From contig JACGCK010000008.1 in NCBI GenBank assembly GCA_014925825.1, positions 186,001 through 250,000 of the forward strand: a stretch of DNA of 64,000 bases, given 5' to 3'. The stretch is from Pholiota molesta. Its lineage: Eukaryota; Basidiomycota; Agaricomycetes; Agaricales; Strophariaceae. The position numbers were made by a program, and so were the translations under genes. Below the pieces are notes generated by a model, which saw only the letters and a list, made by a program, of their open reading frames with translations, was not told the origin of the DNA and searched no databases. Below are positions 3,711 through 63,547 of this stretch, one piece after another (position 1 is the first letter of the stretch; each line of letters begins with the position of its first letter).

Positions 3711-4936
3711 TTATAATACAGTTTTTATCTCATTAACGGTCGCAGTGCTTAATACTTGATCGTCTTCCTGAGTTGTCTCTACTTGCGCCTGCTTTGAAAT
3801 TCCCAACCACTCGAGCCATTCCATGCCCTGCTTATGGAACATCATCAACCCCATCACGACTGGCAGGTACCACAAACTGTGCTGGAAGACGACCCTCGCC
3901 TCTTTTTCGCCGCCTGTGCGCCAGAACCGCCATGCCGCGCGTACGCAGATGAGGTTCAGCGGTAAGGAGGTCAGCGCGAACATCCATGTGGTAAGACCGG
4001 AAAGGGGAAAGAGAATGGAACAGACAGGGACGAGGAGGGTGGCGTGGCGGAGGGAGACGAGGGCATTTTTCGGTGGGGAGAGAACGGATAGCATGCGATA
4101 TCCAGCTTGTGCATATGAATCGCGTACGATATATGAAAGTGAATTGAAGTGAGGGAACTGCCAGCTGAAAAGCAGCATAAAGAATGCGAGGGGCGCAAGA
4201 GGATTGTCGACCAAGGCTAGATCGACGGGTGCGCCAGTGGTCAAGAATGACGGCAAGAAATAATGGACGGGATAGCTGGCCGACGGGAAGAGTTGGCCAC
4301 CGCAGGCGGTCCAGCCCATCAGAGGCGGCAGAGCGCCCACGACTGCGCCCACCCAGGTGTTGTATATACTTCTCCGCTTCATCCAAGTATACAGCCCGGC
4401 GTAGAGTGCAATATTAGCTGCTCCCAAGCACGCGGTTGTAGGGCCGACCATGGTCCAGAGCAGCGCGGGCCCTGCTATGCCCGTGGCAATAGCGAAGCCG
4501 GTGGCGTGCATGGGGGTGATTGCCCTGCGGACGAGGGGGCGCGTGCGGGTGCGTGTCATCTGTGCGTCAAAGGGGACCTCCTGGATCTGGTTGAGCGCAT
4601 TGGCGGATGCGGAGCAGAGGGTGGTACCGAGCGCGGTCGAGAGCAGGACGGGCATCGTGGCCGGCAGGGGGAGAGGGCGACGCCGGACATGGCGGTGAGG
4701 ACGACGAGGGTGGTGAGGCGCGACTTTGCGAGCTGGCCATATATTTTCACGAGCTTAGTGGGAGACGGGGCGTCGATGGTGCGGAAGGACGCGAGCGACG
4801 CGGACGGTGGCTGCGGGGCATAGGCGGAGTCTGTGGTGAACCTGGGTGTGGTGGGTGCCCAGTGGGCATTGTGGAAGAAGAAGGAGGCGAAGGAGGTGCT
4901 CGGGAGGCGGCGGGGGATGCGGACGGGCATTGCCAT
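3711..4936 (-). CDS. protoheme IX farnesyltransferase (heme O synthase), frame broken once
   Basis: Mitochondrial inner-membrane UbiA-family prenyltransferase that farnesylates heme B to heme O for cytochrome c oxidase. The protein is about 408 residues: a presequence-like Arg/Pro-rich N-terminus, then KLVKIYGQLAKSRLTTLVVL, the first Asp-rich-motif region ALNQIQEVPFDAQMTRTRTR (N-x3-D-x2-D type), several membrane segments, and WQFPHFNSLSY near the second motif. The frame breaks at a run of five G on the plus strand (4667-4671): one more base would join GVALSP to LPATMPVLLS exactly as in homologues. No splice sites could explain the change. I start at the ATG at 4936 (MAMPVR); a longer frame begins only with GTG. 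Divergent from U1-70K. Confidence 0.85.
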
Positions 4937-5040
4937 TGCACAGTGGAACACTCTCCGCCGCGAAGAGCGGTTCACGCGGAGTTTGAAAAAGAACAGCCGC
5001 CCGTGCGCGAGTCAGGGCAGTGCTCTCATCCCTCCCCACC
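4937..5040. promoter_or_regulatory. divergent promoter region, COX10 / U1-70K
   Basis: 104 bp separate the two start codons, so both transcripts must initiate here or within each other's 5' leader. No clear TATA element is visible. Confidence 0.5.
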
Positions 5041-6484
5041 ATGCCTGGCACTCATCTCCTCCCCCCCAATCTCCTCAAGCTCTTCGCCCCCAGGCCCCCC
5101 CTCCCCTATGTCCGCCCCATCGACCGCGACATTGACCGCATCCGCAAAAAGGAAGTCTCTGGCGTCGCCGACATCCTCGCACGCTTGAAAGAGGCCAACA
5201 CCGATCTCTCTTCAATGCCGACGCTGCCGAGGCCATGGAAGAGGGCGAAGAGCCCGTCTTCACCCATGCAGAAGAGACAAAACGTCAGATAAGACGCGAA
5301 GAGCGCAAAGCAAAGAGGACCGAAGAGTACAAAATTGCAAAGGAACTTGTTGTCTCCATCCTCTTCGCTCTTTGCTACCCCGTAACTGACCCATCCTGTC
5401 CAGATAAACCTGCGGACGATCCAGAGGCTATTGGAGATCCTTACAAGACCCTGTTTATTTCGCGTCTGGTAACAGATTACCGTCTTTTTCCCGCTCGTCA
5501 ACATACTAAACTAGCTGACACTTGATAGCACAAAACCGCCACCGAGACCGATCTCAGGCGTGAATTCGAAGGCTATGGTACCATCGAACGGGTGAGAATG
5601 TCCGCGACAAGAAAAGCCGCAGTCGAGGATACGCATTCATCGTTTATGAGCGCGAGCGTGATATGAAAGGTCCGCAGCGCCCATCCGCATTCATTCACCA
5701 TATTTCATCACAATAGCTGACCTACCCTATCCTTCTAGCTGCATACAAGGAGTCCGACGGCTTACAAATAATGGGTAAGAGGATTCTCGTTGACGTTGAA
5801 CGCGGCAGGACCGTTCGCGGCTGGAAACCACGTCGTCTCGGCGGAGGTCTCGGCGGTCGTCCCAAACGAGTCGAACCCGTAGCAGCTCCTCCCCCAAGAG
5901 GAGGTGGTATGCGAGGAGGTGGTATGGGCGGTGGTGATCGAAGAGGCGGTTTCGGTGACCGAGGCGGGGGCTTCAGAGGTGGCCGCGGAGGGTTTGGCGG
6001 AGGACGTGGCGGCTTCGGTGGCGACCGGCCCGGTTTCGGAGGCGACCGAGGCGGGTTCGGCGGCGGCGGCGGCGACAGAGGCTACGGCGGTGATCGCGGC
6101 GGAGGAGGCGGGTTCCGCGGTGGCTTTGGCGGCGGCGACAGTGGCTACAGAGGCGGAGGTGGCGGCGGCTTCCGTGGAGGAAGAGATGAACGACCTCCAG
6201 GTGGAGGATTCGGGTATGCAAATTCCGTCAACCTACAGTATGTTCCTAATATCATCTTTTACAGTGGGCGCCCACCCAGCGGTGGCGGGATTGGCTTCCA
6301 TGGTAACGGCGGGTTCGGTGATGCGCCTCCAAACGGCTTCGGACCTCCTCAAGCAGGTCCAGGCGGCTTTGGCGGCCCTCCTCCAGGCGGGATGCCAGGC
6401 GGTGGTGCAGGATTCAGAGGGGACCTCAAACGCGAAGGTCCGGGTGGGTATGATGACCGCGATGCAAAGCGGCCGCGGTACTAG
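5041..6484 (+). CDS. U1 small nuclear ribonucleoprotein 70 kDa
   Basis: Binds stem-loop I of U1 snRNA and helps recognise 5' splice sites. Five exons encode about 403 residues once three apparent one-base gaps are allowed (about 5212, 5345 and 5599). The N-terminus HLLPPNLLKLFAPRPPLPY is the U1-70K signature. It continues into EEGEEPVFTHAEETKRQIRR, the RRM (RNP2 LFISRL, RNP1 RGYAFIVY), and LVDVERGRTVRGWKPRRLGG. Introns lie at about 5349-5403, 5469-5528, 5670-5738 and 6214-6264; the last is 51 bp and in frame. The C-terminus is Gly/Arg-rich (RGG-like, about 250-400) instead of the Arg/Ser tail of animal U1-70K. Each gap, when filled, restores family sequence, for example KETYKP and ERVRIVRDKK. 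Divergent from COX10. Confidence 0.85.
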
Positions 6485-62137: not shown

Positions 62138-62249
62138 AAATGTGAAAATGCTTACACTCCATTTCGTGGAACAACGGGGTCGTAAAAAAAGGGAACCATC
62201 AATAGCATTGGCAAGGATCTGATGGGAGACATATATACAATGGTTTGGT

Positions 62250-63547
62250 CAGGCTTGCACTAGGGCAGACGTTTTCTAGAAATTATTAGCATAGACGGAA
62301 AAATAATATTAACAATTACTTACATATCCAGCAGCATCGAAGTCATACTTAATACCTGCTTTCTCCAATTTTAGCTTACGTTCGCGTTGTCGCTTCAATA
62401 GCGCTTCGAAGCTTTCTTTGTTCTTCTTCCGTGCGAGGCTGCAAAAACGTAATAATCAGCAACAGGAATAATCAAAACCTGGACTACTTGCCTTATTATG
62501 CGACTCTCGTTCAACGCGATCTCTGGGGACAACTCTCCATTTGCGATTTGCACCTACCCAGAGCTCGGGGTGTACTTCCGCCTTGGGGATGAGCTTACAA
62601 CGCATGATATGGCCCATCAACAGTAGTTGTCCATGGTTTCTGCCACGATTTGGGCAACAGCGGATGAGTCGAACTCGATGAAACCGTAATGTTTAGACTT
62701 TCCAGTCTTGATACAATTCTGAGGTCAGAATAATGTATTTATCCACGATAGATAAGACAAATACCTTTTTGTTGCGCGACACCCGTAAACGAGTGACGGT
62801 TCCGAATTGCGAAAAGTATGCCTTAATTGATCTTCGTAGAAACCGTGAGGCAGCGGCCGAGGAAAAGCACACCACGATCTTCTGACTGAGAACGCATCGA
62901 GCAAAGAATGAATACAGGAATGAATGAGAAATAACTACACCACACACCTTCTCCTTTTTAGCTTTCTCCAGCTTCCGCTTGACGCTAGCATCGTCTTTGG
63001 CGACAGTAGGGAGCGAGCCGATATCAAATTCTGTGGGCTCATCGTCCATTGCTTCCTCATCCGAAGAATCGTCGTCGTCCGTCGAGAAACCGTGTAGATG
63101 ACCTTCCTCCTCGGACTCTTCACCCGACTTATTGGCTTCCTCTGCATCTCTAGCTCTTCGTCTTCTGATTCCTCACAACGGGCGCTGGCGCTTTGGCCTT
63201 CTTCGACTTAGCAGGAGGAGCCTTTCGGCTTGCGGGGACGCGAGATAGAGGTAGGGATGGGTCGGTGGGTTTTGATTTCTTGCTGGTAGTGGAGTCCTTG
63301 GAATTCTTGAGGATGGATTTGATCGGCTTTGTTGACGAAGGAGCAGACTCTTTCTTTGCCTTTTTGGGTGCCGAAGCAGGCTGGGCTCCTCTGCTGCTGT
63401 CAAGTCGGGCACAGCATCTTTTTTCCTCTTCAGTGTTTTGGAAGGCTTTGACGATGATTCCGCGTCAGGCACTGCAGCAGTTTTGGCCTCCGAAGCAGCT
63501 TTTGGTGTCGCTTTTTTCGCTTTTTTCGCCAGATTCAGAGGAGCCAT
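62250..63547 (-). CDS. Nop15/NIFK-like nucleolar RNA-binding protein
   Basis: RRM protein of 60S ribosome biogenesis. Start MAPLNLAKKAKKATPKAASE, a Lys/Ser/Pro-rich N-terminus and an acidic stretch (MDDEPTEFDIGSLPTVAKDD), then the RRM: RGVLFLGR with PHGFYEDQL, KAYFSQFGTVTRLRVSRNKK, TGKSKHYGFIEFDSSAVAQI, LLMGHIMRCKLIPKAEVHPE, LWVGANRKWRVVPRDRVERE. The tail is basic (LLKRQRERKLKLEKAGIKYD, then the short last exon KTSALVQA). One-base gaps are needed at about 62628, 62832 and 62857, with two or three more in the N-terminal third (63100-63420). The intron after SHNK may be GC-AG (AAG|GCAAGT at 62491-62490), but the phase at its acceptor does not fit cleanly. Confidence 0.78.

Follow-up and report, generated by a model that had tools for sequence, protein, structure and literature searches.

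One-base frame breaks in conserved genes of the deposited Pholiota molesta genome, very probably assembly errors, are hidden by wrong gene structures in two public models

Background

Watson and Warr reportedly drew attention in 2019 to frameshift errors in long-read assemblies. A passage of PMC5632298 describes a related fault, in which the merging of similar haplotypes by an early FALCON version left insertions and deletions (indels) at some of the nucleotides at which they differed. Here we analyse frame breaks in conserved genes, among them COX10 and U1-70K, within a 64,000-base stretch of the Pholiota molesta genome, hereafter the window, which comprises positions 186001-250000 of contig C604. 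This contig is 883,873 bases long; the assembly to which it belongs has 625 contigs and totals 65,580,286 bases. Coordinates below are window positions; C-numbers denote contigs and L-numbers other 10 kb stretches of the assembly.

Results

Of the 14 genes named in an earlier note on this stretch, 12, among them COX10 and U1-70K, yielded frame breaks that we could re-locate, 18 in total. All 18 have the sign of a sequence one base short, although U1-70K 5346 does so only after removal of an intron by hand, and where the spacing between the two frames is at most 29 bases it is 2 modulo 3 in 16 of 16 cases, which means one base too few (or two too many). Random signs would give 17 out of 17 with a chance of about 1 in 130,000, a value that applies to a list steered by the earlier note, so that the 18-break sample is not blind. 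That note had claimed one-base deletions and almost no insertions in at least fourteen genes. The claim is upheld for the 12 genes above, but inspection of COX6B 15104 did not confirm a break, the Zn2Cys6 gene showed one domain in one frame only and its break was likewise not confirmed, and the same is true of five of the six breaks claimed in the ARID gene and of CWH43 breaks beyond 43726-43748. The deposited sequence does contain these breaks, which are one-sided as far as re-located, and they are very probably not properties of the organism.

The features of two genes and of their public models are as follows.

3762..4921, minus strand: COX10 (heme O synthase / UbiA family; Pfam UbiA), with one base missing within 4656-4679
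4587..4681, minus strand: false intron in the public P. molesta COX10 model, cutting 32 residues retained in P. conissans
5041..6481, plus strand: U1-70K (69 homologs; Pfam U1snRNP70_N), with breaks at about 5206, 5346 and 5598
5164..5231, plus strand: false intron in the public U1-70K model BJ912DRAFT_1020111, from comparison of the model with homologs
5349..5403, plus strand: 55-base intron translated as codons in the public U1-70K model, adjoining the second break; start 5349 placed by hand, aligner start 5352

Both genes were compared with their homologs using an aligner written for the job, which allows introns plus shifts of one or two bases. The COX10 set consisted of the 120 matches listed less P. 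molesta's own, leaving 119 homologs; among the 120 matches listed for U1-70K 71 exceeded 300 residues, and removal of P. molesta's own and of one short alignment left 69. In this splice- and frameshift-aware alignment a one-base loss within 4656-4679 of COX10 was required by 115 of the 119 homologs and an insertion was called in none; the gene is otherwise 86% identical to that of P. conissans. The alignment of P0002, the public COX10 protein, with the window is 100% identical over 359 residues. Residues from about 350 to 600 of P0002 (window 3653-3602 and beyond) come from a false splice past the true end, giving some 250 serine/arginine-rich residues unlike the family.

All 69 U1-70K homologs required a one-base loss at about 5598. 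The break at about 5206 was called as a plain one-base loss with 47 of the 69, as an equivalent five-base step with nine and a few codons off with six, while the shift at about 5346, beside the intron ending at 5403, was required by 62 of the 69 (called as a five-base step). A looser gap cost in the first aligner run had disguised the 5346 break as a long insertion, and the insertion cost was raised afterwards. Reading by hand yields the exact P. conissans residues if 5349-5403 is taken as an intron and a single base is assumed lost ahead of it. One-base insertions were called three times among the 69 homologs, and the three places printed in the first aligner run were all different. U1-70K is 95.7% identical to P. 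conissans and the printed alignment rows contain no in-frame stops. The open reading frame (ORF) P0122 (source tag 'lgn'), probably metagenomic in origin and 98% identical over the searched part, reads RIVRDKKSRSRGYAF through the 5598 break without interruption. Relative to its P. conissans counterpart P0121, the public U1-70K protein, is 23 residues short at the first break and seven short at the third, and at the second it has a net 18 extra residues translated from intron. A search of the assembly found no second copy of the COX10/U1-70K region able to carry the function.

All four breaks checked in these two public models are thus hidden by false or retained introns, and the warning in the earlier note that automated annotation would be misled proved correct for both. 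Programmed frameshifting or RNA-level repair could restore the frames in the cell, and the uniform sign of the breaks, though nothing else that we found, would fit either process. Relatives encode the same stretches of COX10 and U1-70K in one frame, however, and the breaks share no common run context; we find this explanation scarcely credible.

For the remaining genes flanking peptides were picked from three-frame readings and Pfam matches, and a script measured the spacing between the two frames.

8391..9837, plus strand: hom2-like homeodomain / PH_TRF2_HOY1 gene, break 9128-9135 by peptide spacing
10909..12963, plus strand: gene which, from the earlier note, we take to be JJJ1-like, break 12004-12005; zinc finger by Pfam
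18016..18946, minus strand: YJU2B/Saf4 gene, break 18166 by peptide spacing
28289..29154, minus strand: part of the ARID gene, break 28541-28545, the sole one re-located of six
31411..32211, minus strand: VTT-domain gene, breaks 31940 and 31891-31895
37899..38953, minus strand: J-protein gene, break within 37947-38023, a 77-base gap of the same sign that could hide an intron
42004..45176, plus strand: CWH43 / PGAP2IP-like gene, break 43726-43748
59011..60173, plus strand: MAF1, break 59706
61355..61950, plus strand: Asp/Glu racemase-like gene, breaks 61385-61395 and 61706-61707
62617..63547, minus strand: RRM gene (NOP15 in the earlier note), breaks 63366-63385, 63168 and 63148

Pfam matches end, begin or switch frame within about 30 bases of five spots: hom2 9124, MAF1 59715, VTT 31896, racemase 61705-61708 and U1-70K 5232. 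The racemase is the plainest case, in that positions 77-104 of the Pfam family stop at 61708 and positions 104-185 start at 61705 in the neighbouring frame. It is very unlikely that the frame changes in general are overlooked introns. At about 8549-8600 the hom2-like gene has one such change, which was rejected as a lost base and read as an intron after the homeodomain WFQNRR, and the J-protein gap might conceal another; yet 16 of the 18 spacings are at most 29 bases, and the intron at U1-70K 5346 has already been accounted for.

Breaks in JJJ1, MAF1 and YJU2B could not be placed from solved structures, all of them too distant, and a homolog search with the ORF at 29317-30912 gave no match. 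A block of 60-64% GC (26001-36000) has flanks of 43% and 46%, a sharp local change. Segments of the GC-rich block at 30457-30596, 28010-28149 and 32694-32803 match dozens of contigs on both strands at about 74-98% and are probably simple-repeat-like, and 25769-26405 has a copy at 84% identity on C588:140297-140899, either a paralogue or a mobile piece.

The sequenced strain carries two haplotypes. Contig C430 (20,000 of 20,726 bases compared) matches part of the window at 91-98% by blastn, and further allelic pairs at 97% are formed by L017 with C596 and by L009 with C196.

44225..58894, unstranded: part of the window with a second-haplotype copy on C430; no re-located break inside

This haplotype-separated block of 14.7 kb holds none of 17 breaks where 4.7 would be expected from its share of the predicted coding bases (6,716 of 24,363), giving a post hoc P of about 0.004; the J-protein break, excluded from the 17, also lies outside the block. 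A search for second-haplotype contigs (haplotigs) matching other window parts, which left out 1-3599, about 16000-16500 and 24000-25000, found none, with 39 of 114 candidates scored for 25000-35000 and one of two for 6000-16000. In this post hoc contrast the uneven distribution, which the earlier note had pointed out, lines up with where a second haplotype was assembled apart, and this would point to haplotype merging rather than to generic read error. L009, which has its allelic partner present, showed no shift in an ab initio scan at penalty 7.

We incline, with no great assurance, to the view that the breaks were caused by base drop-out on merging the two haplotypes into one consensus. Sequence for which the assembler left the two haplotypes separate has yielded no break; where it merged them the consensus would have lost a base at some positions, which we infer to be probably those where the haplotypes differ. 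Each lost base would shift the frame, and the gene predictor would conceal the shift with a false or retained intron, the outcome seen at the four checked breaks. If merging is the cause, lost bases are expected mostly at third codon positions. By hand, a third-position loss is compatible with all four of the breaks that have exact homologs, which at a null of 0.53 has a chance of 0.08 and is at most a hint. If merging is the cause, moreover, the fault would be predictable from haplotig coverage.

Comparison of the haplotypes within the block also bears on whether the breaks might be real frameshift mutations, the window's nucleus having lost many genes that the partner nucleus covers. A strain with two haplotypes could in principle hide recessive losses. 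Against this, the lesions are of the same sign in 18 of 18 cases, the genes are basic, and the sequence is otherwise conserved where tested (COX10 and U1-70K). Across 6,312 coding columns the block haplotypes show 99 differences, of which 86 are at third codon positions, and they differ by one-base indels at two predicted coding places only, both within about 310 bases of the C430 end; one of these is by reading an intron end and the other is 44,546. In COX10 and U1-70K we found single-base losses only and not the mixed lesions or relaxed constraint of pseudogenes. Real mutation is on this evidence very improbable. Less probable still is the stronger proposition that one nucleus of a dikaryon has been stripped of many basic genes by real single-base deletions and is sustained by its partner; were it true, the interdependence of two nuclei could be read from sequence.

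Three other stretches were noted in the haplotype comparisons. On C430:15869-20000 (L029) the sequence past the point corresponding to window 58888-58894 has no blastn match in the window, a structural difference between the haplotypes just before MAF1. The break-bearing L012 was uninformative as a test of haplotig absence, matching a multicopy family. L004 (C604:120001-130000) has full or partial copies on many contigs and is probably a transposon, and its 98% copy on C601 is unsafe as evidence of an allele.

The earlier note had also placed many of the breaks in base runs, which the counts do not bear out. The longest run within 6 bases of 17 breaks averages 2.71, compared with 2.54 (sd 0.20) at random coding positions, and run enrichment is not detectable; 23% of random position sets reach the break average, and runs of at least four occur at 4 of the 17 breaks against 11%. 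Run lengths in the window are near the second-order Markov expectation, with no clear truncation of long runs. Together the lack of enrichment and the Markov-like run lengths argue against homopolymer miscalls. GC content was considered as a driver and set aside, being little different at breaks (0.54) and at coding positions (0.52).

These observations bear on the main rival to haplotype merging, that the breaks are the usual consensus errors remaining in a long-read assembly made without accurate short-read polishing, arising at random or with coverage and independently of haplotype. One-sided deletions would fit such errors, and in the part of PMC12007338 that concerns a long-read bacterial draft false deletions dominate the indels. 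Both the lack of base-run enrichment and the absence of all 17 breaks from the 14.7-kb haplotype-separated block (a post hoc contrast) count against it, and we hold it to be a substantial possibility somewhat short of probable. What the earlier note had called residual long-read errors is kept as regards error, which is very likely; its homopolymer flavour is not supported.

A fourth-order ab initio frameshift scan was run at penalties 5, 7 and 9 on the window and on 20 other 10 kb stretches, two of them from C430. Deletions and insertions called at penalty 7 stood at 5 : 0 in the window and 6 : 3 elsewhere, at penalty 5 at 5 : 4 and 7 : 7, and at penalty 9 at 4 : 0 and 3 : 2; pooled, the ratios were 11 : 3 (penalty 7), 12 : 11 (5) and 7 : 2 (9). 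At least two of the window's five penalty-7 deletions are not errors, 8601 being an intron by reading and 56002 being shared by both haplotypes; among the six deletions called elsewhere, the one in L029 is the C430 copy of 56002. With 240 planted indels of each sign the scan recovered 175 deletions and 166 insertions (two of the insertions with the wrong sign) and was not strongly sign-biased. It is more specific than a codon-usage hidden Markov model (HMM) with frameshifts, yet misses the COX10 and U1-70K breaks. The HMM was dropped as too noisy (window 11 : 10 and others 46 : 34 at penalty 4; 8 : 5 and 23 : 12 at penalty 5). The ab initio scan weakly supports a deletion bias, and across the 20 other stretches it did not show the window to be worse than the genome at large.

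Discussion

The breaks are highly likely to stem from one or other kind of assembly error, and drop-out on merging two haplotypes is the cause to which we incline. Several points weigh against this interpretation. The case for sequence error is built on sequence comparison, and the literature on the genome did not yield how P. molesta was assembled. The haplotig searches were only partly scored. The contrast between separated and other sequence is post hoc and concerns one block, and coding sequence outside it is under-predicted, which would move P to perhaps 0.02 by our estimate; in addition, genes within the block were checked only by the ab initio scan and a few Pfam matches. The separated part itself holds a counter-example to a strictly one-sided pattern: at 44,546 the window reads in frame and C430 carries an additional base. 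The allelic pair L017/L031 has a single one-base indel over 3,458 coding columns. Four of four in the third-position test (chance 0.08) carries little weight, and the sign bias of the ab initio scan is gone at the lower penalty of 5.

The meaning of the breaks is a warning about data rather than about biology. Because of them the public U1-70K model BJ912DRAFT_1020111 and the COX10 model are without conserved residues or carry unrelated sequence. The P. molesta genome features in a Pholiota pan-genome comparison, as part of PMC11856836 indicates. Gene counts and claims of gene loss for P. molesta could be distorted by broken genes, and also if contigs of the second haplotype are taken for additional genome.

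In the long-read frameshifts attributed to Watson and Warr 2019, as here, conserved genes are disrupted by short indels and the predicted proteins are corrupted; the P. molesta case differs in that the effect was traced for each individual break in two deposited mushroom proteins, and in showing no run enrichment. Gene-fragmenting errors of the Kastor type, as presented in a portion of PMC12007338, resemble ours in the predominance of false deletions but are strongly tied to homopolymers, which the P. molesta breaks are not detectably. The FALCON merging described in a passage of PMC5632298 is likened to P. molesta by pattern and not by assembly record, and the link to heterozygous sites is indirect here. 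The likeness lies in the arrangement given in that passage, where separated blocks adjoin merged sequence and the indels fall in the merged part, which fits the block covered by C430, in which no break was found.

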